Shown here: piece after piece, positions 11,804 through 42,543 of the stretch
Layout: every line of letters starts with the position of its first letter
Numbering within the stretch: position 1 is the stretch's first letter
Assembly: GCF_001044425.1 (NCBI RefSeq)
Contig: NZ_LFML01000074.1
Span: 1 to 64,000 of the forward strand
Direction: 5' to 3'
DNA: 64,000 nt
From: Streptomyces roseus
GTDB lineage: Bacteria; Actinomycetota; Actinomycetes; Streptomycetales; Streptomycetaceae
Translations under genes and position numbers: made by a program
Notes under the pieces: generated by a model
The model's input: the letters and a program-made list of their open reading frames with translations, nothing else
Told to the model about the DNA's origin: nothing
Database searches by the model: none

Positions 11804-12451
11804 CTACTTCCTGAGGTCGCTCACAGATTCGAGCCGCTCTTCCTCTACCACGAGGGGGATGGGGATCTGGTTCGCCGCATAGTAGAGCGCGATCAGGAAG
11901 TGTGCGGCGAGAGTGAGGGGAGCGGAGAAGAAGGACAGGAGGACGGTCATGGGGTACGCCACGGCGCCGAGGCCGAAGCGCACCCGGGTGGCCCGGGCGC
12001 CGTCCCTGTCCACCCGCTCGTGGAAGAGGTGGCCGACCCGTGTGACGTACCACCAGAAGGCCAGGAACGCGAGCGCGTAGGCGACGGTGACCGAACTGTA
12101 GAGGACCGCGGCGGCGTTGGCGGAGCCGCCCTCTTCGACGAGGTGCTCGGCCAGCACGGTCGTGGTGTACGGAATCACCGACACCACCATCAGCACCAGG
12201 AGATTCAGGAACAACAGCGGCCGGTCGACCCGCTTCAGGTGGCTGAAGATGGTGTGGTGATTCACCCACATCACACCGATGATGAGGAAACTCACCACGT
12301 ATGCGGCATAGTGCGGCCACTGCTGCGCCACCCCGTGCCAGAAGTCCGATCCCTTTTCCTCCGGAACCTTTAATTCCAGGACCAGAATCGTGATGACGAT
12401 CGCGAATACGCCGTCACTGAAAGCCTCGACACGTCCGGTTTCGCGTTCCAT
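11804..12451 (-). CDS. TMEM175/DUF1211-family potassium-channel-like membrane protein
   Basis: A 215-residue protein with about six membrane segments and the family signature near the N-terminus, RVEAFSDGVFAIVITILVLEL; the FSD motif lies in the first, pore-lining helix of bacterial TMEM175 channels. Further features are the VNHHTIFSHLKRVDR motif and hydrophobic helices through residue 205. Bacterial TMEM175 homologues assemble as tetrameric, K+-selective leak channels. The ATG at 12451 follows a GGGGAGG ribosome-binding site. It lies alone between two minus-strand genes, separated upstream by a hairpin terminator. The channel role is by family; no regulation is visible. Confidence 0.87.
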   Translation of the reverse strand: MERETGRVEAFSDGVFAIVITILVLELKVPEEKGSDFWHGVAQQWPHYAAYVVSFLIIGVMWVNHHTIFSHLKRVDRPLLFLNLLVLMVVSVIPYTTTVLAEHLVEEGGSANAAAVLYSSVTVAYALAFLAFWWYVTRVGHLFHERVDRDGARATRVRFGLGAVAYPMTVLLSFFSAPLTLAAHFLIALYYAANQIPIPLVVEEERLESVSDLRK

Positions 12452-12938: not shown

Positions 12939-14453
12939 TCAACGGGTGGTGGAGCTGTCGGAGGTGGGCTCGTCGGGTGGTGCGGCGCAGGCGGCGGCCG
13001 TGGTGAGCGGCAGCCGGACGACCATCCGGGTCTCGCCGGGACGTGAGCGGGCGGTGATCGAGCCGTGGTGCCGCTGGGTCACGATGCGGTAGCTGAGGTG
13101 CAGGCCGAGGCCGGTGCCCTTCCCCACGTCCTTCGTCGTGTAGAAGGGTTCGAAGATCCGCGGCAGGGAGTCCTCGGGGATGCCCCGCCCGGTGTCGGCG
13201 ATCTCCACGACCAGGCAGACGCCTTCGGCCCGGACCCTCAGGGTGAGGGTGCCGGCGCCCTCCATGGCCTCGGCCGCGTTGTCGACCAGGTTGGTCCACA
13301 CCTGGTTCAGCTCGCTGGGATAGCCCGTCAGTTCGGGCAGGCCCGGTTCGTACTCACGCACGATGGCGATGCCGGCCAGCTTGGCACGCAGCACGACCAG
13401 CGTGTTCTCGATCCCGTCGGCCACCGCGAAGCGCTGTTCGGGGGCCCGGTCGAGATTGGCGTAATCGCGGGTGGCGGCGACGAGTTGCGAGATCCGGGGA
13501 CCGGCCGCGCGCAGCTCCGCGGCGAGCGAGCGGATCTCCAGCAGGGCCGCGAGGTGGTCGAGGGCGGCGGGCAGGGCCGGCTCCGAGACCCCTTCCAGCC
13601 GCTCCAGCAGCCAGCCCAGTTCCAGCCCGAGGTCCGAGATCCCGGAGCCGAGCAGCCCGGGCCGCTCCGTGCCCGCCTCCTCGGCCCAGTCGGCGATCTC
13701 CTCCTCCGCGTCCGCCTGGGCGAACGGGTCGGTGGTGGTGGGCGGCGGCAGCTTGTCGAGCTCCTCGGCCAGCCGGTCGAACACGGAGCGCTCCGCACCC
13801 GTCGCGGCGGCGCCCCAGGCCTGGGCGGTCCGGGTGAGGCCCTCCAGGGCGGGCGCCAGCTCCTGCGCGGCCCGGGCCACGGCGGCCGCGGGGTTGTTCA
13901 GCTCGTGCGCGAGGCCTGCGGCCAGGGTGCCGAGCGCCTCGACGGTGGCCCGCTTGCGGGCCTGCACCTCGGAGGACTTGATCCGCCAGGCCAGTACGGG
14001 GATCAGGACGGCCGCCACCCCGTGGCAGCGGGTCAGCATCTCGAAGAACACGGGTTTCGGGTACGCCACGACCGTGGTCGCCGGGCCGCTCGCGGCGGCG
14101 GTGGCCACGTAGGACCCGTCCGTCAGCAGCGGCAGCTCGCCGGTGAAGCGGTGCGCGGCGGAGGGTTTGCCGTCGTGCTCCTCCGCCGCGGCGCTCTCCT
14201 CCTCGGTGGAGTGCCGGGTCAGCACCTCCTCCCGGCCGTCGACCACCTTCGTGACGACGAGCCCGCCCGCGAGCAGCACGTGGAAGCCGTCGGCCTCCTC
14301 GCCGTCCCGGAAGAGGACCTCCCCGTCGGCGAGCACCCGGGGCTCGGAGACGGAGACCAGCCAGTCCAGCTGGTCCTCGGTGAGCCCGGCGAAGATCTCC
14401 AGCCCGAGCAGGGCCGACCGCAGCTCCGCGGTGCTCATGTCGGCAGCCTTCAT
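12939..14453 (-). CDS. Sensor histidine kinase with N-terminal cyclic-nucleotide-binding-type domain
   Basis: This 504-residue soluble kinase has an N-terminal cNMP-binding (CAP_ED) domain at about residues 10-145 (LEIFAGLTEDQLDWL, ADGEVLFRDGEEADGFHVLL, GELPLLTDGSYVATAAASG), a HisKA region with AGLAHELNNPAAA (phosphoacceptor about His183), a long helical insert, and a HATPase_c domain (NQVWTNLVDNAAEAM, IADTGRGIPE, GTGLGLHLSY). No membrane segment is present, so it senses a cytoplasmic signal. It overlaps the MFS gene by 4 bp. Homologous kinases usually sit beside a receiver-thioredoxin-reductase fusion; here that fusion is at 36872-38605, about 22 kb away, and is the probable partner. Confidence 0.88.
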   Translation of the reverse strand: MKAADMSTAELRSALLGLEIFAGLTEDQLDWLVSVSEPRVLADGEVLFRDGEEADGFHVLLAGGLVVTKVVDGREEVLTRHSTEEESAAAEEHDGKPSAAHRFTGELPLLTDGSYVATAAASGPATTVVAYPKPVFFEMLTRCHGVAAVLIPVLAWRIKSSEVQARKRATVEALGTLAAGLAHELNNPAAAVARAAQELAPALEGLTRTAQAWGAAATGAERSVFDRLAEELDKLPPPTTTDPFAQADAEEEIADWAEEAGTERPGLLGSGISDLGLELGWLLERLEGVSEPALPAALDHLAALLEIRSLAAELRAAGPRISQLVAATRDYANLDRAPEQRFAVADGIENTLVVLRAKLAGIAIVREYEPGLPELTGYPSELNQVWTNLVDNAAEAMEGAGTLTLRVRAEGVCLVVEIADTGRGIPEDSLPRIFEPFYTTKDVGKGTGLGLHLSYRIVTQRHHGSITARSRPGETRMVVRLPLTTAAACAAPPDEPTSDSSTTR

Positions 14454-21835: not shown

Positions 21836-22576
21836 CTATCCCTTGGCGAGCTGCTCCAGGAACGTCTCGGCAAGGGCCTTGGAGGAGTACGGGTTCTGGC
21901 CGGTGGTGAGCTTGCGGTCCACCACCACGTGCGAGTCCCAGATCTTCTCGGCCTTCTCGTAGCGGGCGCCGAGCCGGGTGAGCTCGGCCTCCAGGATCAG
22001 CGGGAGGCGGCCGGCCATGTTGGTGACCATCTCCTCGCTGTGCGAGAAGGCCGTCATCCGGTAGCCCTCGAACGGCCAGCGGCCTTCGCCGTCGCGCAGG
22101 GCGAGGAGCGAGGTGTGGCCGTGGCAGACGGTGGCGAGCGGTTTGTCCTGGGCGATGGCCCAGCGCAGGATCTGGGCGAGCGCGTCGGAGTGGGGCAGGT
22201 CTCCGATGGCGCCGTGACCGCCGCTGACGTAGATGCCGTCGTACTCGGCGACGTCCTTCTCCCCCAGGGATTCGAGGGCGAGGGGGTTCTTGAGCTGGGG
22301 GGTGCCCTCGACGACTCTCACGTACTCGGCGGCGTTGGCCGCGTCCTCGTTCGGCGAGCCCTCGGGGCGGACCCACTGGAGGAACTGCGGGTCGATGCTG
22401 GTCTGGTCGACCGTGGGGGCCCGGCCCCCGATCGTCGCCACGTCCACGGTGTGGCCTGCGGCCTTGAAGAGGGTGTAGGGAACGACGAATTCCTCGGCCC
22501 AGAAACCCGAAGGGTGCTGTTCCCCGTCCAAGAGGTGGAGCGTTGCCTTGGCCGTCATGACGACGAGAATCTTCAT
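21836..22576 (-). CDS. DJ-1/PfpI superfamily protein (Hsp31-type), copy A
   Basis: A 246-residue class I glutamine-amidotransferase-like protein of the DJ-1/Hsp31 branch. The nucleophile elbow is ATVCHGHTSLLAL (Cys about 150), with an acidic N-terminal element FWAEEFVVPYTLFKAAGH and the oxyanion strand YVSGGHGAIGDLP. Hsp31-like proteins show glutathione-independent glyoxalase (methylglyoxal to lactate) and chaperone or deglycase-type activities. It sits 32 bp before the aldehyde dehydrogenase gene and 70 bp after the MinD-like gene. It is one of three DJ-1 family genes in the same run, which suggests carbonyl handling. Activity is inferred from family. Confidence 0.87.
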   Translation of the reverse strand: MKILVVMTAKATLHLLDGEQHPSGFWAEEFVVPYTLFKAAGHTVDVATIGGRAPTVDQTSIDPQFLQWVRPEGSPNEDAANAAEYVRVVEGTPQLKNPLALESLGEKDVAEYDGIYVSGGHGAIGDLPHSDALAQILRWAIAQDKPLATVCHGHTSLLALRDGEGRWPFEGYRMTAFSHSEEMVTNMAGRLPLILEAELTRLGARYEKAEKIWDSHVVVDRKLTTGQNPYSSKALAETFLEQLAKG

Positions 22577-22646: not shown

Positions 22647-23390
22647 TCAGGCGCGCGATACTTCGTGAGGTGCGTCCAACGCGGAGATGATGGTGCGGAA
22701 TTCACCGACCAGGGGGTGGTCGGGATGGGCTTCGGCGAATATGCGTTCGCCGTACAGTGCGGCCATTTCCGGCACATACGGAAGGATTCCGGCCAGGGGG
22801 GCGCCGTACACCTCCTCGGCACGCCGGCGGACCTGCCGTCCGTCGATGCCCTCGGGAGCCATGCTCATGACCAGAGCCCGCCGGCAGGCCAGCCGCCCGG
22901 CCAGGGCGATGGTCTCCTCGACCCCCGAGAGGTCGATCCGGTCGGCCCGGGCCAGGATCATCAGGACGTCGGCGCTCGCCATCGCGGTCACCGACTCGTT
23001 GTTCAGCCCGGCGTGGGTGTCGAGCAGCAGCACGTCGAGCGCGTAGTGCTCGACCAGCCGGTCGAAGCCCTCGGGCAGCAGCCCGACGTCGTAGCCGCTG
23101 GTCATGAGCTCGCGCAGGGCCGCCGTCCCGGTCCGTGCCGGTACGACGTACAGCCCGGGCACGCCGACCGGCTGCGCCGCGGCCTCGATCTCACAGCGGC
23201 CGAGCAGGTAGTCGGCCAGGGAAGGACCCGGGCCGAGGCGGAAGAGCAGGTCCAGGGTGGGCGACTGGATGTCCGTGTCGACCACCCCCACCCGGCGTCC
23301 CCCGGCCGCGATGAGCAGGGCCAGGTTCGCCAGTACCGAGGACTTCCCCGTGCCCCCGCGGTGCGAGTGCACCACGATGGTCCGGGCCAT
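22647..23390 (-). CDS. MinD/ParA-like P-loop ATPase linked to partner-switching genes
   Basis: A 247-residue SIMIBI-class ATPase starting MARTIVVHSHRGGTGKSSVLAN. The deviant Walker A is RGGTGKSS, keeping the terminal Lys-Ser but with Arg in place of the ParA/MinD signature Lys; A' is VDTDIQSPTLDLLFRL and Walker B LDVLLLDTHAGL. There is no MinD C-terminal amphipathic helix or helix-turn-helix, so it is neither a plain MinD nor a ParA with its own DNA-binding domain. It overlaps the phosphatase gene by one base (TGATG). Such a gene is not part of classical RsbU/RsbV/RsbW modules. It may position or gate the phosphatase; this is inference. Confidence 0.83.
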   Translation of the reverse strand: MARTIVVHSHRGGTGKSSVLANLALLIAAGGRRVGVVDTDIQSPTLDLLFRLGPGPSLADYLLGRCEIEAAAQPVGVPGLYVVPARTGTAALRELMTSGYDVGLLPEGFDRLVEHYALDVLLLDTHAGLNNESVTAMASADVLMILARADRIDLSGVEETIALAGRLACRRALVMSMAPEGIDGRQVRRRAEEVYGAPLAGILPYVPEMAALYGERIFAEAHPDHPLVGEFRTIISALDAPHEVSRA

Positions 23391-24658
23391 CAGGCCACCG
23401 CCGTGCGGCCCGCGGCCGTGGTCCGGTCCGCGTGCGGCCCCCGCGCCGCACGTGGCCGGTGCAGGGCCAGCATGGTGACGTCGTCGTGCTGTTCGGCCGT
23501 GCCGGTGTGCTCCCGTACCGCCGTGTCCATGAGGTCGACCACCTCCCTGCCGCTCACCGGGGGGCCGGCGAGCAGCTCCAGCATCCGCTCGTCACCGAGG
23601 AAGCTGCCGTCGGGGCAGCGGGCCTCCGGCACCCCGTCCGTGAACACGAACAGGGTGTCGCCGGGGTTCAGCTGGGCGTAGCCGAGCGTGTACACGCAGT
23701 CCGGCAGCACCCCCACGGCGGGTCCTGTGACCTCCAGGGCGAGCGGGTCGCCGCCTTCGGCGCGCAGCAGCAGCGGCGCGTTGTGGCCCCCGTTGATGTA
23801 CACGAGGCTGCCGGTGGCGGGGTCGAGCACACCGAAGAACAGGGTGGCGAAGTACCCCTGCCGGAGGTGGTTGCGGGTCAGGTAGCCGTTGGTGGCGGTG
23901 ACCGCGTTGAGCAGGGGTGTCGCGCCGACGACCGGGATCCGCCTGCTGCCGCCGGCGCGCCCGCCGGCCACGAGGTGCTGGAGTCCGCTGTTCTCCGCGG
24001 TGTGCCGCAGCAGCGAGCGGATCAGCGCCATGAACAGCGCCGCTCCGACCCCCTTGTCGCAGACGTCGGCGACGACGAAGGCCAGGCGCCGGCCGCGGGA
24101 GATCTCGAAGACGTCGTAGAAGTCCCCGGCGACCTGCCGGGCGGGCCGGAAGCGGACGTCGATCTCCCAGCCCTCGGGCACCGGCAGCGATTCCGGCAGG
24201 AAGCCGGCCTGGATCTCCCGGCCGATCTCCAGTTCCTTCTCGTAGCCCATGAGTTCGGCGCGGGCGTCGGCTTCGCGCAGGGTGCGGCCGAGTCCGGCGC
24301 GCTCCGAACAGCTGTGCAGCCGGGCCCCGACGAGGGCGGGCAGGAAGGGCGGTACGAGGTAGTCGTGGCCCAGCCGGACGTGCTCCTCCAGCGCGGCGAA
24401 CTCCGTCACCGTCCAGACGACCACGATGGGGGCCCCGGCCCAGCGGCGCAGCCGCCGCACCGCCAGCCGCACCGACTCGCCGTCGGCCTCGGCCGGGGCG
24501 AGCAGGACGTCGGCGACGGGCAGGTCGTCCAGTGGTCCACCCCGCAGCTCCGCCAGCGTGCGGCCGACGAGCTCCGCGTCCATCGAGCGCAGCGCGTCGA
24601 GGAGTTCGAGCGGAGGCGGCGGGTACTCGTCGAGGATGATCACGGTCGTGGAGGGCAT
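23390..24658 (-). CDS. PP2C-type (SpoIIE/RsbU) serine phosphatase with degenerate receiver domain
   Basis: A 422-residue protein. Residues 1-120 look like a response-regulator receiver, but the phosphoacceptor Asp position reads ADVLLAPAEADG and the conserved Lys is replaced in DYLVPPF, so it cannot be phosphorylated normally. A coiled linker (LREADARAELMGYEKELEIGR) leads to a PPM/SpoIIE phosphatase with its metal ligands: RQVAGDFYDVF, FVVADVCDKGVGAALFMA, FVFTDGVPEA and QHDDVTMLAL. It should dephosphorylate the STAS antagonist encoded at 25110-25421 and so release a sigma factor from its anti-sigma. It carries an extra Gly/Arg-rich insert near residues 225-245. It overlaps the kinase gene by 19 bp. 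Confidence 0.88.
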   Translation of the reverse strand: MPSTTVIILDEYPPPPLELLDALRSMDAELVGRTLAELRGGPLDDLPVADVLLAPAEADGESVRLAVRRLRRWAGAPIVVVWTVTEFAALEEHVRLGHDYLVPPFLPALVGARLHSCSERAGLGRTLREADARAELMGYEKELEIGREIQAGFLPESLPVPEGWEIDVRFRPARQVAGDFYDVFEISRGRRLAFVVADVCDKGVGAALFMALIRSLLRHTAENSGLQHLVAGGRAGGSRRIPVVGATPLLNAVTATNGYLTRNHLRQGYFATLFFGVLDPATGSLVYINGGHNAPLLLRAEGGDPLALEVTGPAVGVLPDCVYTLGYAQLNPGDTLFVFTDGVPEARCPDGSFLGDERMLELLAGPPVSGREVVDLMDTAVREHTGTAEQHDDVTMLALHRPRAARGPHADRTTAAGRTAVA

Positions 24659-25113
24659 GGGTCCGTCCCCTCAGCGTTCACAGTCAGCGTGCTGATGTTG
24701 CGGCCGTCCCTGCGTACGTAGCTGAATTCGTCCACGCTGGTCAGCGCCAGGTGGATGCCGAGTCCGCCGATCCTGCGCCGCTCGGGGGGAATCCCGGGTG
24801 CGGGGGGCAGGCGGCCTTCGACCGGGTCGAACGCCGGCGCGGAGTCCGCTATGGAGATCTGCACCCGGCCGGGGCCGGAGCGGCCGCGGACGGTGATCCG
24901 CCCGTCGCCGCCCCGGTACCCGTGCATCACGATGTTCGTGGCCAGCTCGTCCACGGCCAGCCGGATCCGGTACGCGGGCCCCTTGCCCAGGCCCGCCCGG
25001 CCGGCCAGCCGCAGGACGAACGCGGCGATGTCGCCCAGTGCCCCCAGCGTGGCGGGCACCTCCAGCTCGGCGGACGTCCTCGCCAGTTCGACCATGTCAC
25101 TCATGCGTTTCAC
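24640..25113 (-). CDS. RsbW-like anti-sigma factor / serine kinase (HATPase)
   Basis: A 157-residue GHKL ATPase with the N-box AVDELATNIVMHGY (about 56-69) and the G-box region IGGLGIHLALTSVDEFSY. Single-domain HATPase proteins of this type bind a sigma factor and phosphorylate a STAS antagonist. The GTG at 25113 overlaps the stop of the STAS gene (GTGA); an ATG nine bases further in is the other start. No sigma-B/F-type sigma gene is in the run; the only sigma in the window is the distant ECF factor at 6861-7451, which is not the expected client. The sigma partner therefore lies elsewhere or the target is not a sigma. Confidence 0.87.
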   Translation of the reverse strand: MKRMSDMVELARTSAELEVPATLGALGDIAAFVLRLAGRAGLGKGPAYRIRLAVDELATNIVMHGYRGGDGRITVRGRSGPGRVQISIADSAPAFDPVEGRLPPAPGIPPERRRIGGLGIHLALTSVDEFSYVRRDGRNISTLTVNAEGTDPCPPRP

Positions 25114-25421
25114 TCATCGGAGAGCACGATGCTGCGGTCCAGCCCGGCCGTCCGGATGGTCCGGGACACGGGCTCGATCGCGCCGACCACCTTGATGGTC
25201 ACGTGGTTGGCCACCTTCTGCTGGGCGAAGACCAGGGACCGCAGTCCGGCGCTGGCCATGTAGCCGACACCGGCCATCCTGATCTCGACCGTGCCGGTGC
25301 CGTGCCCGGCGGCCTTCTCGATGGTCTGGTGGAAGTCCGGCGCGGTCTTGGCGTCCAGCTCGCCCGCCAGCTCGATCACGGTGGTGTCGCCCTCGATGCT
25401 CAGGGACACGGAAAGCGGCAT
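25110..25421 (-). CDS. STAS-domain anti-sigma factor antagonist (copy 1)
   Basis: A 103-residue single STAS domain related to RsbV/SpoIIAA: an opening strand LSIEGDTTVIELAGELDAKTAPDF, then VGYMASAGLRSLVFAQQ, where the Ser after Ala (about Ser60) occupies the phosphorylated position of the DSxG motif. The usual Asp before it is Ala. When unphosphorylated it should bind the RsbW-like protein encoded next door; the phosphatase two genes on would regenerate it. It lies 56 bp after glgX and overlaps the kinase gene by 4 bp. Confidence 0.9.
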   Translation of the reverse strand: MPLSVSLSIEGDTTVIELAGELDAKTAPDFHQTIEKAAGHGTGTVEIRMAGVGYMASAGLRSLVFAQQKVANHVTIKVVGAIEPVSRTIRTAGLDRSIVLSDE

Positions 25422-27609: not shown

Positions 27610-27613
<4 letters not shown>

Positions 27614-27972
27614 CGCACGGCCGCTGTCTTGAGCGGCGCCTTGGCCTTGGAGCGCGCGGCCGCCGCCTCGCCGGTCTCGAAGAAGTCGAGGAAACCGGTG
27701 GCCGACATGACGAACCGGACTTCCTCGCTCACCCCGTACAGGGTGACCCCGACCCCGGCGTGCTGGGCCTCGCGGTAGACGACGAGCAGGGTGCGCAGGC
27801 CCGCGCTGGACACGTACGTGACGGCCGTGAGGTCGATACGCAGCGGCCGGCCCTCGCGGACCAGCGGCAGCAGGGACTGCAGCAGCTGTCCGGAGGTCTC
27901 ACTGTTGATCTCGCCGGTGGCGACGAGGACGGTACCGCCCTTGTTGCGGCGTTCCTTGACGTTCAGAGACAT
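27610..27972 (-). CDS. STAS-domain anti-sigma factor antagonist (copy 2)
   Basis: A 120-residue STAS domain: GGTVLVATGEINSETSGQLL, then VTYVSSAGLRTLLVVYREAQ with a Ser-Ser-Ala-Gly phosphoacceptor element (about Ser55), and a basic C-terminal extension (ARSKAKAPLK). It is a paralogue of copy 1 but diverged, so the two probably answer to different kinases or the same kinase with different affinities. Its stop overlaps the glgX start by 4 bp, so the antagonist and the debranching enzyme are made together. It lies 37 bp after the AGE-family gene. Confidence 0.88.
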
Positions 27973-28009
27973 TGCTTTCCCCTCTAGTCGGGGCGCCCCC
28001 CGTTGAGCG

Positions 28010-29848
28010 CTATGAAGTCACCGGGCGCAGCCGGACCTTGACCTTGATCCGTCCCTGGACGTCCGGCAGCCTGACGGTCAGACCGTCGGCGTCGAAGTCC
28101 CGGTACGGCTTCTCGTCGATCTCGACGGACGCGATCTGCACGGAGCCGGCGGGCAGCAGGTCGGGTGAGACCCGCAGCACGCGGTCGGGCAGGTTGGTCG
28201 GGTCGGGCTTGAAGTGGAAGTCCATCTCCCGCTTGTTGATCAGCAGGTTGTTGTAGACGGCGGACAGGTAGCAGAGCTCCGCCGAGTGGTACATGGACAT
28301 CGAGTGGCTGCCCTTGAGCCGCTCCGTGCCGAGCAGGTACGGCGTACCGCTGGCGAGCACGTTGAAGTAGACGGCTCCCTCGTCGTGGTCGAGGAAGAAC
28401 GTGTTGTAGAAGGCCTCCGCCTGCCGGGCCTCGCGCAGGAAGGCGTCTCCGCCGACCGTGCCGTTCAGGATGAGGTAGGCGAGGATCGCCTGCTCCTGCT
28501 GCCACCAGGCCTTGCGGTCGTGCCAGGCGAAACGATACGTCTCCTGTCCGTCCTTGCCGACGGACTTGATGCGCTCCACGACGTCGTACCAGCCGCCGCG
28601 CTGCACGTCGCTGCCGACCGCCGGCATGATCTCGCCGATCTTCTTGGCGAGGTCCTGGTACGCCGGCTTGGCCTTCAGCGAGTTCATCCGCATCAGGTTC
28701 CAGGCGATCTTGAGGTTGTGCCCGACGACCGCGCGGTTCTGCTGCCAGCTGTGCGCGGTGTCGTGCGACCAGTCGCGGAAGAAGCGCTCCTGGACGAACG
28801 GGCTGTTCTTGTAGTCCGGGAACTTGTCCGCGATGGTGTCGAAGGTGTACTCCAGGAAATCGGCGTACCTCTGGTCGCCGGTCGCCAGGTACAGGTTGAT
28901 CAGGTAGGCGGGCGCGTGGTCGCCGACCGAGTTCCAGTTCTTGCGCTCGGCGTTCTCGCCGAGGGACTCGTGGTCCGCGCTGAACAGGATCGGGTCGATG
29001 TGCGAGTAGTAGCCGCCCTGCTCCTCGTCCTTGAAGAACTTGTCGAACAGCCGGATGGTGGCGTCCGCGTCGTTCTTGATCCGGATGTCACCGGTGACCC
29101 GGTACGTCTGGATCGGGCCGGCCAGCGCGTAGATCTGCTCGTACATCGGGATCGCGTCGTAGTCGTCGGAGAACTCCGAGGTGAACAGCTTGCGCTCGCT
29201 GTCCCCGTCGACGCTGATGCCGTGGTACCAGAAGACCACGTCCTCCTCGCTGTCCACGACCCGCATGTGCTTGCGCAGGTACTCGGTGCCGCGCTCGGCG
29301 ACCTCCAGGTACTCGTCTTTGCCCGTCAGGAGGTAGGCCGAGGCCATGCCGTAGACCAGGCGGGAGATCGTGTCGGTCTCCTGGACGTGGCTGGCGGTCT
29401 TGTCGCCGCCGAGCCGGATCTCGGTGCGGTACTCGGTGAAGTCCACCGGGCCGTCGCCGAACTGCGCCCGGATGTAGAAGTCGGCCAGCGACTCGATCTG
29501 CTTGACCCACCAGCTGGGCTCCTCGAACCGGTAGTCCTCGGCGCCGCGGCCCAGGAACACCAGCCGCTTGGCGTCGAAGCGCCCGCCGCGCTCCGGATAG
29601 TGGATGCCGTAGACGAAGAGGAACCGGCCCGGCGAGAGCATCTCGTCGATGTGCCCGGAGGCGTCGATGTACGGCTCGTCCAGGTTGCGGACCAGCTCCG
29701 CGCTCGGGTCGCCGGCCAGGGAGACGTCGAACTCCCGCCCGTCCGATGTCTTCAGCCGCAGCAGGCGGGACTCGGAGTCGAAGCGGCCGACGTAGCCCGC
29801 GATGGTGTCGGAGAAGGAGAAGCTCACGGCGTCCGCCATGTCATGCAC
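28010..29848 (-). CDS. AGE-family (N-acylglucosamine 2-epimerase-like) protein with N-terminal extension
   Basis: A 612-residue protein. From about residue 105 on it forms the (alpha/alpha)6 barrel of AGE/cellobiose-2-epimerase enzymes, with RFFRDWSHDTAHSWQQNRA, VVGHNLKIAWNLMR, RGGWYDVVERIKS and the C-terminal GSHSMSMYHSAELCYL supplying the likely catalytic His residues. The family interconverts or isomerises sugars such as glucose/mannose/fructose and N-acylglucosamine. The first 100 residues are strand-rich (GYVGRFDSESRLLRLKT, FLFVYGIHYPERGG) and are not part of the family core, as is the short C-terminal beta region. A second ATG nine bases in (MADAV) is equally possible. It overlaps the VOC gene by 8 bp. 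Substrate unknown. Confidence 0.8.
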   Translation of the reverse strand: MHDMADAVSFSFSDTIAGYVGRFDSESRLLRLKTSDGREFDVSLAGDPSAELVRNLDEPYIDASGHIDEMLSPGRFLFVYGIHYPERGGRFDAKRLVFLGRGAEDYRFEEPSWWVKQIESLADFYIRAQFGDGPVDFTEYRTEIRLGGDKTASHVQETDTISRLVYGMASAYLLTGKDEYLEVAERGTEYLRKHMRVVDSEEDVVFWYHGISVDGDSERKLFTSEFSDDYDAIPMYEQIYALAGPIQTYRVTGDIRIKNDADATIRLFDKFFKDEEQGGYYSHIDPILFSADHESLGENAERKNWNSVGDHAPAYLINLYLATGDQRYADFLEYTFDTIADKFPDYKNSPFVQERFFRDWSHDTAHSWQQNRAVVGHNLKIAWNLMRMNSLKAKPAYQDLAKKIGEIMPAVGSDVQRGGWYDVVERIKSVGKDGQETYRFAWHDRKAWWQQEQAILAYLILNGTVGGDAFLREARQAEAFYNTFFLDHDEGAVYFNVLASGTPYLLGTERLKGSHSMSMYHSAELCYLSAVYNNLLINKREMDFHFKPDPTNLPDRVLRVSPDLLPAGSVQIASVEIDEKPYRDFDADGLTVRLPDVQGRIKVKVRLRPVTS

Positions 29849-33858: not shown

Positions 33859-35502
33859 TCAGATCTGTACGTCGACCAGGAACGGTCCGGGGTGCTCCAG
33901 CATCCGGGCCACGGCGGCGACCGCCTCGTCGGGCTTCTCCACCCGCGTCCCTTCGGCGCCGAGCGCCCGGGCCAGCCCGGCGAAGTCGATCTCGGGGTGG
34001 GAGAGGTCGAAGGAGCCCGGGAAGCCGTGCTCCGGGATGTCCCGCTCCCGCCAGTACTGGGCGATGTTGTCGTCCAGCAGCCGGTACTTGCGGTTGTTGC
34101 AGACCACGAACTTGGCGTCGATGCCGTGGCGGACCGCGGTCCACAGCGCCTGGTACGTGTACATCGACCCGCCGTCGCCCGCGAAGCCGACGACCAGGCG
34201 GTCCGGGCGGGCCAGCTTGGCGCCGACCGCCCCTGGGAAGCCCACACCGAGGGAGCCGCCCCGGGTGAGGTGGTAGTCGCCCGGGCGCTCCGGGGGCAGG
34301 TACCGGGTGACCAGCGGCGAGGTGGTCAGCGCCTCGTCGAAGACGATCAGGTCCCCGCCGGTGCGCTCGGCCAGGGTCCGCAGGAAGACGGCCATCGGCG
34401 TGCCGTCCTGCCCGGCGTCCGTGCCCCGGGCGGACAGCGCCCGCTCCCGGGTGCGGGCGTCGAGCCGGGCGGCCGCGGCCGCCCGCCGCTGCGGGCTCAG
34501 CCTGCGCTCCAGTACGCCGGCCAGCGCGCGCAGCGCCTGCTTCGGGTCGGCGGCCAGGCCCAGGTCCACCGGATGGTTCTTGGCGATCTCGTAGGCGTTC
34601 AGGTCGATGTGGACGACCTTGGCGCCGGCCCGGAAGGGGTTCTCCAGCTCGGGGAAGACCTCCGGGAAGATATAGGTGCCGACGATCAGCACCCCGTCGG
34701 CGCCGGCGACGAGCTCCTTGCTGTGCGGGCCGAACATGTGGCCGCTCTGGCCGCGCCGCAGCGGGTGCGAGGCCGCGATGTTCACCTCGGAGGAGTCCAC
34801 CTCGTACACGTCCGCGCCCAGCAGCTCGGCGACGGCGACGAGTTCGCGCTGGGCCCCGGAGAGCGAGACCCCGTCCCCGACGAGGATCACGGGCCGCTCG
34901 GCGGAGGCGAGCAGCTCGGCCGCCCGTCCCACCGAGGCCGGGGAGGGTGCCACGTCGGTGAGCGGTACCTGGGCGGGCAGGACGGGCTCGGAGTTCAGCT
35001 CGTCCAGTACGTCCATCGGCAGCGCCACGAAGACCGGGCCGCGCGGCGGGGTCAGGGCGATCTTGACCGCCCGGCGGACGGTGCGCAGTACGGAGTGCCG
35101 GTCGGTGACCCGGGTCGCGTACTTGGTCACCGGCCTGGCCATCGCCACCAGATCGGACGCCATCTGCGCGTCCATGGCGTCGTAGCGGACCCCGGCGTCG
35201 CCGGCGACCACCACGAGCGGGGTGTGGCCGCGCAACGACTGGTACATCATCCCGATGCCGTTGCCCAGCCCCACCCCGGAGTGCAGTTGGAGCAGGGCGG
35301 CGCCGCCGGTGGCCCGGGCGTAGCCGTCGGCGATGCCGGCGGCCACGGTCTCCTGGAGGGCGAGGACGTAGCAGAAGTCCTCCGCCGCGTCCACCGCGTC
35401 GAGGAATCCCTGTTCCACCGTCCCCGGATTTCCGAACATCACATTCAGGCCGTCGGCCTTGAACTGCTCGATCAGCCTTTCCCGTCCGGGAGTGGCTTCC
35501 AT
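33859..35502 (-). CDS. ThDP-dependent enzyme of the benzoylformate-decarboxylase/acetolactate-synthase type
   Basis: A 547-residue ThDP enzyme with three domains: N-terminal pyrimidine-binding (VMFGNPGTVEQGFLDAV, with the activating Glu in LALQETVAAGIADGYARATG), central (VGRAAELLASAERPVILVGDG), and C-terminal diphosphate-binding with VGFAGDGGSMYTYQALWTA and VVCNNRKYRLLDDN (GDGx23-N type Mg-ThDP motif). Overall layout and the short N-terminus match benzoylformate decarboxylase (MdlC) rather than AHAS catalytic subunits. It should decarboxylate a 2-oxo acid to an aldehyde or carry out a carboligation. No mandelate racemase or dehydrogenase genes are nearby, so benzoylformate itself is doubtful. 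Starts 8 bp after the DJ-1 gene. Confidence 0.87.
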   Translation of the reverse strand: MEATPGRERLIEQFKADGLNVMFGNPGTVEQGFLDAVDAAEDFCYVLALQETVAAGIADGYARATGGAALLQLHSGVGLGNGIGMMYQSLRGHTPLVVVAGDAGVRYDAMDAQMASDLVAMARPVTKYATRVTDRHSVLRTVRRAVKIALTPPRGPVFVALPMDVLDELNSEPVLPAQVPLTDVAPSPASVGRAAELLASAERPVILVGDGVSLSGAQRELVAVAELLGADVYEVDSSEVNIAASHPLRRGQSGHMFGPHSKELVAGADGVLIVGTYIFPEVFPELENPFRAGAKVVHIDLNAYEIAKNHPVDLGLAADPKQALRALAGVLERRLSPQRRAAAAARLDARTRERALSARGTDAGQDGTPMAVFLRTLAERTGGDLIVFDEALTTSPLVTRYLPPERPGDYHLTRGGSLGVGFPGAVGAKLARPDRLVVGFAGDGGSMYTYQALWTAVRHGIDAKFVVCNNRKYRLLDDNIAQYWRERDIPEHGFPGSFDLSHPEIDFAGLARALGAEGTRVEKPDEAVAAVARMLEHPGPFLVDVQI

Positions 35503-35510
35503 GATTCCCC

Positions 35511-36335
35511 CTACCACCCGTAACGGGTGAGACCGTCCTCCAGGACTTCCACGATCTTCTGCCCCGTCAGATAGGAATCGGGGGTGGAACGGCCGGTCAC
35601 GAACGGGTAGTCGACGATCACCGAAAGCGGGTGACCGAAATTCCCGTGGTACGCGCCGCGCGGCCCGGTGGCATCGCGCAGGATGTACTCCAGCGGGTAC
35701 GGCGGCGGACCCATGTTGAAGTCGGTACCGAGGAATCCGGTGCCGTCCTTGTAGTCGTATTCCTTGCAGTGGCCGGTGACGTGCTTGCCCCAGATGATGC
35801 TCTTGCGGTCGCCCCAGTCCCGGGCGAAGGCCAGGCAGGCCACGCCGTAGCACTCGGCGGCCACGACCTTGCCGGCGTTCTTGAAGGCCAGGATCAGCGC
35901 GTGGACGCGCTCGTTGTTGGCGAGGTCGACGATGGGGCCGCTGCCGCCGACGATCAGGAGCGCGTCGTAGCCGGCGATGTCGGCTTCCAGCTTCTCCAGA
36001 TCGCGGTGGTACCCCTCCAGCTTGCGCAGGTAGCCCTCGTCGCTCGTGTACGGGCGCTCGGGTGCCCACGCCTCGATGTCCAGCGGCGTGTCCAGCCGGC
36101 TCGACTGCTCGAACTCCCGCCCCAGCCGGGCGTTCTCCTCGGTGGTGACCGAGCGTCCCAGCGGAGGGTCGATGTAGTTCGCGTCGAGGCTCGGCGGAAG
36201 AGCGTGCGGACGCTTTCCGGTCGGCGTGGCGAATACGACTTCGTAGCCCCGCTCATCGAACTTGGATACCGGGCCTATCAGTTCTTCGGCCCAGTAACCG
36301 TGTTCGGAGACAATGACCAGAATCTTTCTGCTCAC
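35511..36335 (-). CDS. DJ-1/PfpI superfamily protein, copy C (head of the run)
   Basis: A 274-residue member of the larger DJ-1/Hsp31 branch: KILVIVSEHGYWAEELIGP at the N-terminus, a central strand LLIVGGSGPIVDL, and the nucleophile elbow VVAAECYGVACLAFA (Cys about 168). The GTG at 36335 is preferred because it has a GGAGG ribosome-binding site five bases upstream; the frame continues upstream for 55 codons but into the repeat-rich promoter region. It is the first gene of the 24-gene minus-strand run and is divergent from the UBP zinc-finger gene. Activity (glyoxalase, chaperone or other) is inferred from family only. Confidence 0.85.
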   Translation of the reverse strand: MSRKILVIVSEHGYWAEELIGPVSKFDERGYEVVFATPTGKRPHALPPSLDANYIDPPLGRSVTTEENARLGREFEQSSRLDTPLDIEAWAPERPYTSDEGYLRKLEGYHRDLEKLEADIAGYDALLIVGGSGPIVDLANNERVHALILAFKNAGKVVAAECYGVACLAFARDWGDRKSIIWGKHVTGHCKEYDYKDGTGFLGTDFNMGPPPYPLEYILRDATGPRGAYHGNFGHPLSVIVDYPFVTGRSTPDSYLTGQKIVEVLEDGLTRYGW

Positions 36336-36416
36336 GGATTCCTCCAGGCGCCGCCTGTTGTCGTTGGCGTGACCCACACTGCTTGTGCCCGAGGGCTGCG
36401 TCAAAGCGCCCGTATG

Positions 36417-36502
36417 CGACTTCATGAGGTGGGAGGGCAGGTCGCGGGGGCACCTCACGTAGTCGCTTCGGGAGGTCATGAAGTAGCCGCGAGACTTCAT
36501 GA
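36417..36502. promoter_or_regulatory. Four-copy inverted-repeat operator in a divergent intergenic region
   Basis: ACTTCATGA occurs exactly at 36419-36427 (+), 36476-36484 (-) and 36494-36502 (+). A fourth, degenerate copy is at 36451-36466, where CACCTCACGTAGTCGC matches the reverse complement of GCGACTTCATGAGGTG (36417-36432) at 14 of 16 bases. Copies 1-2 and 3-4 form two inverted pairs; the second has 9-bp arms around a 9-bp spacer. The region lies between the DJ-1 gene (-) and the UBP zinc-finger gene (+), so it probably controls both. The binding protein is unknown. Confidence 0.7.
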
Positions 36503-36602
36503 CATCGGCCGAATCGCTGAACCATTACGGGGGCACCGCCCTATGGTCTGGAGGCGCCGTGAATCACGGGTGCGCGAAGGACTGAGGAGAGGGACGGGGA
36601 CG

Positions 36603-36875
36603 ATGACGACGGACCTGTTGTGCACACACATCGATCGGATACGTCCGGTGAAACCAGGAACCGAGGGCTGCGAGGAGTGCCTCGCCCTCGGCGACAGCTG
36701 GGTGCACCTGAGGATGTGCCTCAGCTGCGGGCACGTCGGATGCTGCGACTCCTCCAGGAACCGGCACGCAACCAAGCACTACCGCGCCACGGAGCACCCC
36801 ATCGCGGCCTCGCACGAGCCCGGCGAGGCGTGGGCCTGGTGCTACGCCGACAAGCTGATGCTGGACGCGGCATGA
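36603..36875 (+). CDS. UBP-type zinc-finger protein
   Basis: A 90-residue protein consisting almost only of a UBP-type zinc finger. Cys and His ligands are in CTHIDRIRP, GCEECLALGD, MCLSCGHVGCCDSS and RHATKHYRATEHPI. In eukaryotes this fold binds the C-terminus of ubiquitin; Streptomyces has no classical ubiquitin, so here it probably binds another C-terminal peptide or acts as a redox/zinc element. The ATG follows GAGAGGGACGGGG. Its stop overlaps the start of the receiver-reductase gene (ATGA), so the two proteins are made together. This pairing recurs in actinobacteria. Confidence 0.88.
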   Translation: MTTDLLCTHIDRIRPVKPGTEGCEECLALGDSWVHLRMCLSCGHVGCCDSSRNRHATKHYRATEHPIAASHEPGEAWAWCYADKLMLDAA

Positions 36876-38605
36876 GCGCGGCCCCGGAGAGCGCCACCGC
36901 CCCCGTGACCACCCCCGCGGGCGGGGCCGCGGCGGAACGGGCCGAGAGCAGGAAGCCCGTCATCCTGGCCGTGGACGACGATCCGCAGGTGCTGCGGGCC
37001 GTCCGCCGCGACCTGCGCAGCGCCTACGGCGACCGCTACCGGGTGCTCGGCGCCTCCTCCGCCGCCGACGCCCTCAAGATCCTGGACTCCCTCGACGAAC
37101 GCGGCCACGATCCGGCGCTGTTCCTCGTGGACCAGCGGATGCCCGACGTGACCGGCGTGGAGTTCCTGCTGGAGGCCGTCAGCCGCTTCCCGGACGCCCG
37201 CCGCGTGCTGCTCACGGCGTACGCGGAGACCGACGCGGCGATCACCGCCATCAACCGGGTCCGGCTGGACTACTACCTGCTCAAGCCGTGGGACCCGCCG
37301 CACGAGCGGCTCTTCCCGGTGCTGGACGACCTGCTCTCCGACTGGCTGGCCACCTACCGCCCCGCGTACGACGGCATCATCGTCGCCGGGCACCTCGTCT
37401 CCCCCGGCACGCACGCCGTGCGGGACTTCTTCACCCGCAACGGCCAGCCGTTCCGCTTCCTGAACGTGGAACGGGATCCCGAGGCGCTGACCCTGATCGC
37501 CGCCCAGCCCGACGCGGTGCTGCCCCTCGTCCGCTTCCCCGACGGGGCGGTGCTCTCGGCGCCCTCCGACACCCTGCTGGCCCAGCGCCTCGGGCTCGCC
37601 ACCACCGCCTCGCGCCCGCACTACGAGTGCGTGATCGTCGGCGCGGGTCCGGCGGGTCTGGCGGCCGGCGTCTACTCGGCCTCGGAGGGCCTGTCCACCC
37701 TGATGCTGGACTCCCGCGCCCCGGGCGGCCAGGCCGGCACCTCCAGCCTGATCGAGAACTACCTGGGCTTCCCGTCCGGGCTCTCCGGCGGCGACCTGAC
37801 CCGCCGCGCCACCATCCAGGCCTCCCGCTTCGGCGCCGAGATCCTGCACCCGGTGGAGGTGGTCTCGCTGACCCGGGACGACCCGGCGAAGATCCTGACC
37901 CTGGCCGACGGCACGGAGATCAGCGCCGAGACGGTGCTGTTGGCCACCGGGGTCTCGTACAACCGCCTGGAGGCCCCGGGCGCGGACCGCTTCGAGGGCG
38001 CGGGGCTCTACTACGGCGCGGCGACGACGGAGAGTTCGGCGTGCATCTCGCAGCACGTGTTCATCGTGGGCGGCGCCAACTCGGCCGGGCAGGCGGCGGT
38101 GCACTTCGCCAAGTACGCGGCCCGCGTGACCATCCTGGTCCGCGCCGAATCGCTGGACGCGAGCATGTCCCGCTACCTGATCGACGAGATCGACCGCACC
38201 CCGAACATCGAGGTCAAGGTCCGCACGACGGTGGTCCGGCTGGACGGCGAGGAGCACCTGGAGCAGCTGACCCTGCACGACGCGGCGACGGGTGAGGACA
38301 CGCGGGTCCCGGCCCGGTTCATGTTCACGTTCATCGGCGCCCGCCCGCACACCGACTGGCTCTCGGGCGTGGTCGAGCGCGACGAGTACGGCTTCGTGCT
38401 CACCGGGTCCGACCTGATCGCGAACGGCGGGGAACTCCCGGCGGAGTGGAGCCTGGAGCGCGCTCCCTACCCGCTGGAGACGAGCGTCCCCGGCGTGTTC
38501 GCGGCCGGTGACGTACGGGCCCACTCGGTCAAGCGCGTGGCCTCGGGCGTGGGCGAGGGGGCGATGGCGGTCTCGCTGATCCACCGGTACCGCTCGATGG
38601 GCTGA
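36872..38605 (+). CDS. Response-regulator receiver fused to thioredoxin-reductase-like flavoprotein
   Basis: A 577-residue fusion. Residues 28-150 are a receiver domain (VDDDPQVLRA, phosphoacceptor Asp87 in LVDQRMP, Lys138 in LLKPW). After a linker domain (about 165-245) comes a TrxR-like module with FAD motif VIVGAGPAGLAAGVYSASEG (from about residue 255), GGQAGTSSLIENYLGFPSG, and NADPH motif IVGGANSAGQAAV (about 398). At the redox-disulfide position there is only one Cys (Cys391 in ESSACIS) instead of CxxC, so it cannot be a normal thioredoxin reductase. Phosphorylation probably switches its NADPH/FAD chemistry. The likely kinase is the cNMP-domain kinase at 12939-14453. Confidence 0.9.
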   Translation: MSAAPESATAPVTTPAGGAAAERAESRKPVILAVDDDPQVLRAVRRDLRSAYGDRYRVLGASSAADALKILDSLDERGHDPALFLVDQRMPDVTGVEFLLEAVSRFPDARRVLLTAYAETDAAITAINRVRLDYYLLKPWDPPHERLFPVLDDLLSDWLATYRPAYDGIIVAGHLVSPGTHAVRDFFTRNGQPFRFLNVERDPEALTLIAAQPDAVLPLVRFPDGAVLSAPSDTLLAQRLGLATTASRPHYECVIVGAGPAGLAAGVYSASEGLSTLMLDSRAPGGQAGTSSLIENYLGFPSGLSGGDLTRRATIQASRFGAEILHPVEVVSLTRDDPAKILTLADGTEISAETVLLATGVSYNRLEAPGADRFEGAGLYYGAATTESSACISQHVFIVGGANSAGQAAVHFAKYAARVTILVRAESLDASMSRYLIDEIDRTPNIEVKVRTTVVRLDGEEHLEQLTLHDAATGEDTRVPARFMFTFIGARPHTDWLSGVVERDEYGFVLTGSDLIANGGELPAEWSLERAPYPLETSVPGVFAAGDVRAHSVKRVASGVGEGAMAVSLIHRYRSMG

Positions 38606-40146: not shown

Positions 40147-40551
40147 TCACGGCCGGGGCGACCCCGGCCGAGCGCACTCGTCCGGCGGGGGCGTCTGCGC
40201 CAGCAGGACGTCCAGCGCCCCGTCCCCGGCGTCGCGCCACCACTGGAGGGCCTCCTCGACGACCTCCCGCAACGTCTGCCACTCCCCCGGCCAGGCATCC
40301 GCGTACGGCTGCCAGCACGTCACCACCACCAGCCGTCCCGGAGCCGGCGGCAGCCAGGACAGGTCGATCAGCGCATCCCCCAGCGCGTCCCAGTTCCCCC
40401 CGAACCACCGCGGCACGGACAGTGCCGCCCCCCAGCGCCGCAGGAGCTCCGCCTTGCCGTGCACTCCGGCCAGGTCCACCCGGAGCGTCGTCCAGCCCGC
40501 CTCCTCGGCGGCGGCCAGCGCCGGCCCGGGCGGTCGCGGATCCAGGGTCAT
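40147..40551 (-). CDS. Barstar-family ribonuclease inhibitor
   Basis: A 134-residue barstar-like protein: VDLAGVHGKAELLRRWGAAL, then RWFGGNWDALGDALIDLSWLP, the defining barstar helix and loop with NWDAL, then a strand VVVTCWQ and a helix EWQTLREVVEEALQWW. Barstar occludes the active site of barnase/RNase Sa-type guanyl ribonucleases. The start overlaps the stop of the RNase gene by 4 bp, so inhibitor and enzyme are translated together. The Asp residues in the family's inhibitory helix are retained. Confidence in the pair is high because both partners are recognisable. Confidence 0.92.
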   Translation of the reverse strand: MTLDPRPPGPALAAAEEAGWTTLRVDLAGVHGKAELLRRWGAALSVPRWFGGNWDALGDALIDLSWLPPAPGRLVVVTCWQPYADAWPGEWQTLREVVEEALQWWRDAGDGALDVLLAQTPPPDECARPGSPRP

Positions 40552-41042
40552 CGCAGGACCGCCTTGAAGGTCTCGTAGTGGTCGTCCGTGTAGTAGAACT
40601 CCCCGCCCTCACCGGTCACGATCCGCCGCGCCCCGCGGTCGCGCTCCCCCGGCGTCCTCACCGTGAACTCGTGGTAGTAGCCGCGCTTCTGCTGCGGCAG
40701 GACCTTCTCGAAGTTCCCGAACACGGTGCCGTCCTGCCGGTACGCGTACGGCCCGCCCTTGTCGATGAGCGCGAGCACGTCACGCGCCTGCACCGGCAGC
40801 GCGTCCGCCCGTACGGTCGCCATCCCCTTGGCCCAGGCGGGCGGCGCCACGGAAGAGCCGGGCACCGAGGATCCCGGCACCGAAGTGCCCGGCACCGCTG
40901 AACCGGGCACGGAAGCCGATGCGGGAGCGGACGGCGCAGCGTTCTGCCCACCGCACCCCGCCACGCCGGCCAGCGCGACGCACAGGAGCAGGGCCTCCGC
41001 GACGCGACGCAGCAACGACCGGGGCACGTCCCTGAAGATCAT
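40548..41042 (-). CDS. RNase Sa-like guanyl-specific ribonuclease, predicted lipoprotein
   Basis: A 164-residue protein. Residues 1-30 form a signal peptide ending in the lipobox VAGC (Cys30), so a membrane-anchored lipoprotein is predicted rather than a freely secreted RNase. Residues about 44-68 are a VPGS/VPGT repeat linker. The RNase domain (about 72-164) keeps all catalytic residues of RNase Sa: Glu125 in GYYHEFTV, Arg136 and Arg140 in ERDRGARR, and His155 in YYTDDHYETF. The two Cys of the RNase Sa disulfide are absent. It cleaves RNA after G. The downstream barstar gene protects the cell. Confidence 0.9.
   Translation of the reverse strand: MIFRDVPRSLLRRVAEALLLCVALAGVAGCGGQNAAPSAPASASVPGSAVPGTSVPGSSVPGSSVAPPAWAKGMATVRADALPVQARDVLALIDKGGPYAYRQDGTVFGNFEKVLPQQKRGYYHEFTVRTPGERDRGARRIVTGEGGEFYYTDDHYETFKAVLR
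40848..40907. repeat. Four 15-bp tandem repeats encoding the VPGS linker
   Basis: Four imperfect 15-bp units starting CAC(C/G)G and ending CCGG, together encoding the Val-Pro-Gly-Ser/Thr repeats of the RNase linker on the minus strand. Unit number could vary between strains. Confidence 0.65.
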
Positions 41043-41496: not shown

Positions 41497-42543
41497 TCAG
41501 TCGTCCGGGTCGGCCCGGTCCAGCGCGGGCCGCAGCCCCGGCTCCGACTCGGTGAGCAGGTAGTCCGCGACCGCCGTGTCGGTGACCAGGCTGGTCACGA
41601 GCCCGGAGCGGAGCACCGCCCCGATCGCGGACGCCTTGCGCAGGCCGCCCGCGATGGCCACGACCTCGGGAATCCGCCGCAGCCGGTCCGCCTCGACGGT
41701 GATGCAGCGCTCGCCGAGGTCCCGGCCCACGCGCCGCCCCTCGGCGTCGAACAGGTGGGCGGACATCTCGGCCGCGACACCGAGCGAGGCGTAGTGGGCC
41801 CGCTCCTCGTCCGTGAGCATGTCGTGGACGGTCGAGATCCCCGGCTCCCACGAGCCGATCGAGACCGCGGCGACCGTCACCTTGTCGAAGTACTCGAAGG
41901 CGCGGGCGATCCCCGTCTGGTTCCGCAGCGCGGCCGCGGTCGCCGGGTCGGGGAGCAGCATCGGGGCGTAGATGGGGTGGGCGTCGCCGCCCGAGACCTG
42001 GGCCGCGCGCCGTACGGCCTCCACGGACCCGCGCTCGGCCGTACCGGCGTCGTACACGCCCGTCAGCTGCACCACGGTGCACGGGGGCAGCCGGTGCAGG
42101 GAGGCGGCCATGTGGATGGTCGAGCGCCCCCACGCGAGGCCCAGTACGTCGCCCTCGTTGACGAGCTCGCCGAGCAGGTCGGCGGCGACCGCGCCGAGGT
42201 TCTCCGGATCCGGCGCGTCCTCGGTCGCGTCGGCCGGGGACTCGACGACGACGGCGTGCCGCAGCCCGTACCGGGCGCGCAGCGCGTCGGACCGCTCCGC
42301 GTCGAGCTCGGCCGGCACCCGGATCTCGATGCGTACGAGGTCGCGCTCCAGGGCGGTCTCCAGGACCCGGGCCACCTTGAAGCGGCTCACGCCGAACTCC
42401 TCGGCGATCTGGATCTTGGACTTGCCCTCCAGGTAGAAGCGGCGCGCCATGGCAGCCGCCTGCACCAGCTCCGCGGGTCCCATCCGCAGGGCTGACCGTC
42501 CCGCCGACATTGCAGACACCGCGTTCTCCTCACTGCTGTTCAC
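41497..42543 (-). CDS. SorC/DeoR-type transcriptional regulator
   Basis: A 348-residue regulator with an N-terminal helix-turn-helix (KSKIQIAEEFGVSRFKVARVLETA, about 41-64) and a SorC sugar-binding domain (GLAWGRSTIHMAASLHRLPP, VTVAAVSIGSWEPGISTVHDML, ERCITVEADRLRRIPEVVAI AGG region). SorC-type proteins bind sugar phosphates. It is placed 91 bp before rpe, the pentose-phosphate epimerase, on the same strand, which fits a sugar-phosphate-responsive regulator of this or another carbohydrate operon. The start is an ATG followed by a long N-terminal linker. Confidence 0.88.
   Translation of the reverse strand: MNSSEENAVSAMSAGRSALRMGPAELVQAAAMARRFYLEGKSKIQIAEEFGVSRFKVARVLETALERDLVRIEIRVPAELDAERSDALRARYGLRHAVVVESPADATEDAPDPENLGAVAADLLGELVNEGDVLGLAWGRSTIHMAASLHRLPPCTVVQLTGVYDAGTAERGSVEAVRRAAQVSGGDAHPIYAPMLLPDPATAAALRNQTGIARAFEYFDKVTVAAVSIGSWEPGISTVHDMLTDEERAHYASLGVAAEMSAHLFDAEGRRVGRDLGERCITVEADRLRRIPEVVAIAGGLRKASAIGAVLRSGLVTSLVTDTAVADYLLTESEPGLRPALDRADPDD

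Follow-up and report, generated by a model that had tools for sequence, protein, structure and literature searches.

A candidate operator array between two divergent Streptomyces operons and a transposase-derived protein as its proposed regulator

Four near-palindromic sites lie between two divergent operons of stress-related genes, headed by a DJ-1/ThiJ-like gene and a UBP-type zinc finger gene, in the 64,000-nucleotide stretch of Streptomyces roseus DNA analysed here (the window). We propose that the protein binding these sites is an IS701-like protein encoded about 25 kb away in the same island, and on sequence comparisons we put the probability of this reading at roughly 0.7. The protein would descend from an IS701 transposase whose overall fold was kept while the catalytic aspartate pair was lost, and no terminal repeats were seen around its gene. 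Its multimers would bind beside two promoters, at intervals of 21 and 33 bp that correspond roughly to whole turns of the helix, so that the array would jointly control the DJ-1 operon and the operon of the UBP protein and a receiver-reductase fusion (RR-reductase). The operator targets appear to resemble the inner part of the IS701 terminal inverted repeat (TIR). A domesticated DDE transposase would then regulate host genes via operators that look like transposon ends.

The array and its conservation

The earlier note on this DNA had described three exact 9-mers and a fourth, nearly matching copy. The 9-mer ACTTCATGA indeed occurs exactly three times in the window, at 36419-36427 (+), 36476-36484 (-) and 36494-36502 (+), all within the span claimed. 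The fourth copy (36450-36465, -) shares 13 of 16 bases with the first, and not 14 as had been stated. The same note read the copies as two inverted pairs. This agrees with the + - - + orientation of sites A to D, but every site is itself an imperfect palindrome, and the array is better described as four near-palindromic sites on roughly one helix face.

With at most one mismatch, the 9-mer had 15 matches in the window against 2.65 expected, a number reached in none of 100 shuffles. The core ACTnCnTGAnnT is present four times in the 267-bp intergenic region, where mononucleotide shuffles (n=20,000) gave a mean of 0.0037 and a maximum of 1. Across the 7.83-Mb genome, single copies are not enriched: ACTTCATGA was found 28 times versus 37 for its reversed control, and ACTnCnTGAnnT 128 times versus 154. 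The signal is therefore the clustering and not the lone site.

Conservation is stronger proof that the array is real than the counts in the window. Our genus sample comprised 150 genomes, its own included, and nine others had a close UBP orthologue (84-94% identity). All nine also carried DJ-1 (92.7-98.9%) and an adjoining RR-reductase. In the intergenic alignment of these ten Streptomyces genomes, all four sites were present in every genome and ACTnCnTGAnnT was common to 40/40 site copies (ten genomes, four sites each). Site starts were spaced 33, 21 and 21 bp apart in nine genomes and 33, 20 and 21 bp in one, close to multiples of 10.5 bp. Retention of the sites in all genomes with both operons (10/10) supports the earlier proposal that the array serves two divergent operons. 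The comparison of related strains suggested with that proposal gave retention in these ten genomes and in most of 27 close loci. Four sites at a matrix score of at least 14 were found in 23 of the 27 (L087-L111, L113 and L116, from the best 80 of 118 DJ-1 loci), three sites in three and two sites in one. Judged by its sequence, the array very probably functions as an operator, for which we predict both binding and control.

The same counts bear on whether the sites are left over from old IS701 insertions and play no part in regulation. Their resemblance to IS701 ends, described below, would fit such a reading. Decay would not preserve core positions that are invariant in all 40 copies at fixed spacing, and the aligned intergenic DNA contains no CTAGTAG ends; we regard this reading as extremely unlikely.

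The -35 boxes of the two predicted promoters (Table 1) are invariant across the ten genomes. Sites A and D are centred about 55 bp upstream of the start points inferred for the DJ-1 and UBP promoters from the usual geometry. With both predicted -35 boxes downstream of these outer sites, position favours activation over repression, and the regulator of the array more likely acts as an activator.

Two other stretches of this intergenic region are conserved. Positions 36336-36375, from the DJ-1 start to the predicted -10 box, are almost invariant in ten genomes, beyond what would be expected of an ordinary leader. A conserved, nearly palindromic block close to TTCGGCCGAATC (36504-36516) lies between site D and the -35 box predicted for UBP.

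Table 1. Sites, predicted promoters and island genes in the window
Feature	Positions	Strand	Remarks
Site A, core 12-mer	36419..36430	+	10/10 genomes; centre 89.5 bp 5' of DJ-1 start
Site B, core 12-mer	36452..36463	-	kept in 10/10 genomes
Site C, core 12-mer	36473..36484	-	kept in 10/10 genomes
Site D, core 12-mer	36494..36505	+	kept in 10/10 genomes
Predicted DJ-1 operon promoter	36376..36404	-	TTGACG, 17 bp, CAGTGT; transcription start inferred
Predicted UBP operon promoter	36518..36547	+	TGAACC, 18 bp, TATGGT; transcription start inferred
Further site	11804..11819	+	centre 79.5 bp 5' of IS701-like gene; 16/16 bases identical in 11/11 genomes
Further site	22658..22673	+	centre 89.5 bp 5' of second DJ-1 gene
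IS701-like protein (DDE_5), 441 aa	10407..11732	-	catalytic Asp pair lost; proposed regulator
Histidine kinase with cyclic-nucleotide-binding domain	12939..14360	-	start uncertain
Second DJ-1 gene (DJ2, HchA-like)	21836..22576	-	
SpoIIE phosphatase, RsbW-like kinase and STAS genes of the island	23390..25421	-	
Thiamine-diphosphate enzyme, benzoylformate decarboxylase-like	33859..35505	-	
DJ-1/ThiJ-like gene (DJ1)	35511..36335	-	heads leftward operon
UBP-type zinc finger protein	36603..36875	+	heads rightward operon
Receiver domain fused to thioredoxin reductase-like domain (RR-reductase)	36872..38605	+	Pfam

Island sites and candidate regulators

The core ACTnCnTGAnnT occurs six times in the 64 kb, in sites A-D and at 11806 and 22660, always upstream of island genes. 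The site before the IS701-like gene, compared in the ten aligned genomes plus genome G046, overlaps the final codons and TAG stop of a TMEM175-like gene. The site before the second DJ-1 gene overlaps the 3' end of a ParA-like gene, reads ACTTCGTGAGGT in two of ten genomes and ACTTCGTCACGT in the other eight, and lies at the same distance from its gene as site A from DJ1. Together these two sites suggest an island regulon, and self-control of the IS701-like gene, in the window's clade.

Beyond the island, ACTTCNTSASGT is found at 14 places in the genome, three of them in the island; by ORF calling, ten of the other 11 are coding and one is near a contig edge. Given the missing enrichment of single sites and the nearly all coding places of ACTTCNTSASGT outside the island, we rejected a genome-wide regulon. 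The global regulator offered in the earlier note is not supported. Like sites recur at other promoters of the island, which also encodes the IS701-like protein, and the note had not connected this protein with the sites. The absence of genome-wide enrichment of single sites points to a regulator belonging to the island. At 20/20 other UBP loci, the matrix score never exceeded 10.3.

Compared over about 40 kb, the island is conserved, with 24/24 tested window proteins in nine of ten genomes and 23/24 in G012, where the exception, the sorC-like gene, is located elsewhere. In Pfam scans of the island proteins, the DDE_5/IS701 protein was the one protein within the island assigned to a DNA-handling family. 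A SorC-like protein with a Sugar-bind domain (41497-42543) and a CarD-like protein are encoded at the border of the island. Of the regulator-like genes, that of the SorC-family-like protein lies closest to the array, at about 5 kb, and its product could in principle be the regulator. It is a core gene, present in 30/31 genus genomes of which most have no DJ-1, and lies more than 5 Mb from the island in G012. It was found at 0/53 distant DJ-1 loci (best 80 of 118) and nowhere in stretches L167-L186 or L191-L193, and palindromes persist in both sets. We give this candidate next to no chance.

Direct control of the array by the island kinase and RR-reductase, or by a partner response regulator, would suit the position of these genes within the island and the divergent orientation of RR-reductase and DJ-1 in several distant loci. 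Pfam found no DNA-binding domain in the RR-reductase, and the island scans revealed no response regulator carrying an output domain. We therefore consider direct control very unlikely, and the earlier suggestion that the regulator is a product of the redox kinase system is not supported. The kinase and RR-reductase could instead provide the signal input to the IS701-like protein.

One genome counts against the IS701-like protein as regulator of the array. In G046 (L194, G046:C223, 5987-13039), a deletion from the reductase gene into the kinase gene has removed the DJ-1/UBP stretch. The island is cut to sorC, ABM, an unknown 172-aa gene, the reductase 3' end, a partial kinase, the TMEM175-like gene and the IS701-like gene. 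Despite the loss of DJ-1 and UBP, G046 retains the IS701-like gene and its upstream site.

Other parts of the island were recorded alongside. A barstar-like gene and a ribonuclease gene (barnase-type family) are immediate neighbours at 40150-41042, next to the rightward operon. The block at 23390-29848 encodes a SpoIIE phosphatase, an RsbW-like kinase, two STAS proteins and ParA-like, GlgX and GlcNAc-2-epimerase-like proteins, and recurs with DJ-1 in many distant loci.

Similar sites are found before DJ-1 in other actinobacterial families. GTDB species genomes were scanned with DJ-1, and the best 80 of 118 loci comprised 27 close and 53 distant ones. The DJ-1 proteins of Streptomyces sp. NRRL S-244 and S. 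flavotricini share 98-99% identity with that of the window. In 22 distant loci (best 80 of 118), the 350 bp upstream of DJ-1 contain palindromes close to ACTT-N4-AAGT (at least 7 of 8 bases), a count that, like the operator matrix derived from such sites, leaves out L156 and L166 (AT-rich genomes). In 14 of these 22 a palindrome begins 90-117 bp ahead of the aligned start of DJ-1. Genera with an upstream palindrome include Microbispora, Sphaerisporangium, Nonomuraea, Saccharothrix, Amycolatopsis and Actinomadura. Across the 53 distant loci (best 80 of 118), palindrome density was 0.80/kb in noncoding (57) versus 0.16/kb in coding DNA (90). Without the two AT-rich genomes, in which the ORF caller missed genes, the densities were 0.74/kb (40) and 0.16/kb (90).

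The spacing of the window's array also has counterparts. Sphaerisporangium melleum has three sites at exactly 21-bp steps, and L153 and L157 have site pairs 42 bp apart. The matrix built from sites A-D scored at least 18 within 350 bp upstream of DJ-1 in 6/53 distant loci (best 80 of 118) versus 7/1718 control windows. Counting against the proposed regulator, S. natalensis (L124) combines DJ-1 and a weak site with no IS701-like match near DJ-1. Far from the actinobacteria, a cyanobacterial MAG (Desmonostoc, L166) encodes a 68% identical DJ-1 adjoined by a TPP enzyme.

The IS701-like protein and the ends of its mobile relatives

The IS701-like protein is linked to DJ-1 well beyond the window. 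In 25/26 distant genomes, the contig with DJ-1 also carries a homologue, at a distance of 0.6-27 kb; S. natalensis is the exception. This homologue is the genome's best in 24 of the 25 and the second best in L155. DJ-1 is present in 21/150 genomes of the genus sample, and an IS701-like match is on the same contig in 19 of the 21 (among the matches listed). The other two are assemblies of about 1000 contigs. In all ten aligned genomes, the gene has the same neighbours.

By sequence, the protein belongs to the IS701 family, matching NF033540 (NCBIfam) at 294 bits (cut-off 150) and DDE_5 at 139.6 bits. We compared its residues in 52 cluster-linked rows, which include three duplicate pairs and many near-copies, with those in 18 mobile rows, defined by terminal repeats and including two copies of one element. 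All 18 mobile rows have Asp-Asp at positions 104-105 of the window protein. Asp is found at 104 in 1/52 linked rows and at 105 in 0/52 (P in 33, E in 18 and S in one), and the window protein reads QP. Asp 189 is present in 18/18 mobile versus 18/52 linked rows. CTAGTAG-type repeat pairs were found around 0/11 island orthologues in the stretches searched; such repeats are present at L187-L190 and at 14/20 further homologues picked as likely mobile. The closest other homologue in its own genome is 37% identical (among the matches listed). Of the features of an active IS701 mobile element, the protein thus has the family membership, and catalytic residues, flanking repeats and a multicopy or variable position were not found. 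The features of a transposase-derived factor that were found are linkage to host genes under sequence conservation and target sites resembling the ancestral ends.

In a tree calculated without six near-identical rows, 17 mobile rows and two unclassified ones form one branch, and the linked rows are scattered over several. Because the tree needs at least four to five label changes and its long branches make the finer order unsafe, we do not claim a single origin for the linked proteins. The window protein is predicted to have a Tn5-transposase fold. The ColabFold model (11 sequences) had a mean pLDDT of 76.4 and a pTM of 0.77, and its best structural matches were Tn5 transposase-DNA complexes (E 2e-12, 410 columns, 13% identity, TM about 0.5).

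Other Streptomyces IS701-like proteins (L070-L086 and G000:C127:36019-37302) share about 37-44% identity with the window protein. They may be further retired transposases in other neighbourhoods, and most unclassified IS701-like rows likewise have no Asp pair. Around homologues of at most 46% identity (loci L068-L086), no score exceeded 15.7 within 1.5 kb (19/19), compared with 24.4 for the island site. In the distant clusters, a TIR-matrix match of at least 14 lies before or at the start of the IS701-like gene in 3/24 rows. Self-control as a general rule was therefore dropped.

We then compared the operators with the ends of the mobile elements. The ends of the mobile rows read CTAGTAG, or one change from it, followed by a core close to kRCTTsGTyAGGT. 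The operators set beside them were ACTTCGTCAGGT, ACTTCGTGAGGT and ACTTCATGAGGT, and the closest single pair was TACTTCGTTAGGT of L214 and TACTTCGTGAGGT upstream of the second DJ-1 gene. A TIR matrix was built from 15 distinct 13-mers of mobile IS701 ends, with no operator in training. Its best match in the whole locus fell within 350 bp upstream of DJ-1 in 25/27 close and 19/53 distant loci (both from the best 80 of 118), a start-codon match at L138 being the difference between 19/53 and 20/53. None of 300 column-permuted matrices reached either count (close, mean 1.5 and maximum 21; distant, mean 3.0 and maximum 14). In 34/53 distant loci (best 80 of 118) the top match lay elsewhere than upstream of DJ-1, which counts against the proposed reading. 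Within a clade, loci and elements are not independent of one another, and all these counts overstate the number of separate observations.

Of two tests in reverse, one was positive and one at chance. A matrix of 31 distant operators, picked by palindrome alone, had its top match at an end in 11/18 mobile rows (permuted mean 1.9; 11/1000 as high), and both ends were among the top four matches in 18/18. With the A-D matrix, an end was the top match in 1/18 mobile rows, which equals chance. The operators of the window's clade seem to have drifted from the IS701 ends.

A conventional helix-turn-helix regulator encoded elsewhere might bind ACTT-N4-AAGT, with the IS701-like gene as a passenger or target. 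Short promoter palindromes are typical of such regulators, and in 7/23 distant stretches an XRE gene (MmyB-type by Pfam, one tested) lies near the IS701-like gene, as does an AAA-type NTPase gene in 7/23. Against this stand single sites without genome-wide enrichment and the lack of any helix-turn-helix family recurring in all distant clusters. Pfam scans found no XRE gene in the window's island, and the likeness of the sites to IS701 ends would be left unexplained. We consider such a regulator unlikely.

If the IS701-like protein is the regulator, the window would hold a bacterial DDE transposase turned into a promoter-specific regulator that continues to recognise a form of its former transposon-end sequence, and both halves of the domestication, protein and target sites, would be readable in one system. 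The wider reading, to which we give about even odds, is an actinobacterial family of transcription factors derived from DDE transposases. Dead IS701 proteins would have become fixed in metabolic or stress clusters, and their operators would be transposon-end cores that had been captured and multiplied, set at promoters at intervals of about two or three helical turns. If so, many proteins named 'IS701 family transposase' would be regulators hidden by this automatic label. They could be sought as dead single-locus transposases with the terminal repeats of mobile relatives at neighbouring promoters. The proposal also names a candidate switch for the widespread DJ-1/TPP/GlgX/STAS-SpoIIE cluster.

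Comparison with known systems

Arrays of short palindromes upstream of stress or development genes are known in actinobacteria for OsdR/DevR and BldM (PMC5069765, PMC4125116). The consensus sequences in the available parts of these sources, AGGGCCGATCGGCCCT and TCACcCgnncGgGTGA, do not match ACTT-N4-AAGT by eye. On this mismatch with the published consensus, we rejected OsdR/DevR and BldM (group I and II)/WhiI as regulators of the array. Active IS701 elements are described in Geobacillus (PMC8024623), and the available part of that source contains nothing comparable. Our literature search, confined largely to papers outside subscription journals, covered bacterial DDE-derived transcription factors, IS701 proteins as Streptomyces regulators and IS701 ends, and listed no published bacterial case.

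With the IS701 family transposases (NF033540), the window protein shares sequence family and fold. It differs from them in the missing Asp pair, in that no terminal repeats were found and in its fixed place in a conserved cluster. Some transposases are known to bind their own ends and promoters, and the Tn5 inhibitor is a non-transposing relative, produced by the same element, that limits the transposition of that element. Tn5 transposase and its inhibitor (1muh, 1b7e) are the best structural matches to the predicted model of the window protein. The inhibitor acts on its own element, whereas the array sites lie at host promoters.

The plant transcription factors FHY3/FAR1 derive from MULE transposases (PMC13306707). 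As far as the available part of that source goes, they resemble our proposal in being transposase-derived DNA-binding regulators of host genes, and differ in being eukaryotic and from another transposase family. TldR proteins are nuclease-dead, TnpB-like, linked to host genes and act as RNA-guided transcription factors, according to the part of the source available (PMC13418256). On that account, TldR and the IS701-like protein are both transposon-derived nucleases that have lost catalysis and are linked to non-transposon genes, and TldR is a transcription factor. TldR is RNA-guided and derived from TnpB, whereas the window protein is of the DDE_5/IS701 type with a predicted Tn5-like fold, and its candidate sites resemble the terminal repeats of its relatives. 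By analogy, TldR is the nearest bacterial parallel to the regulator proposed here.
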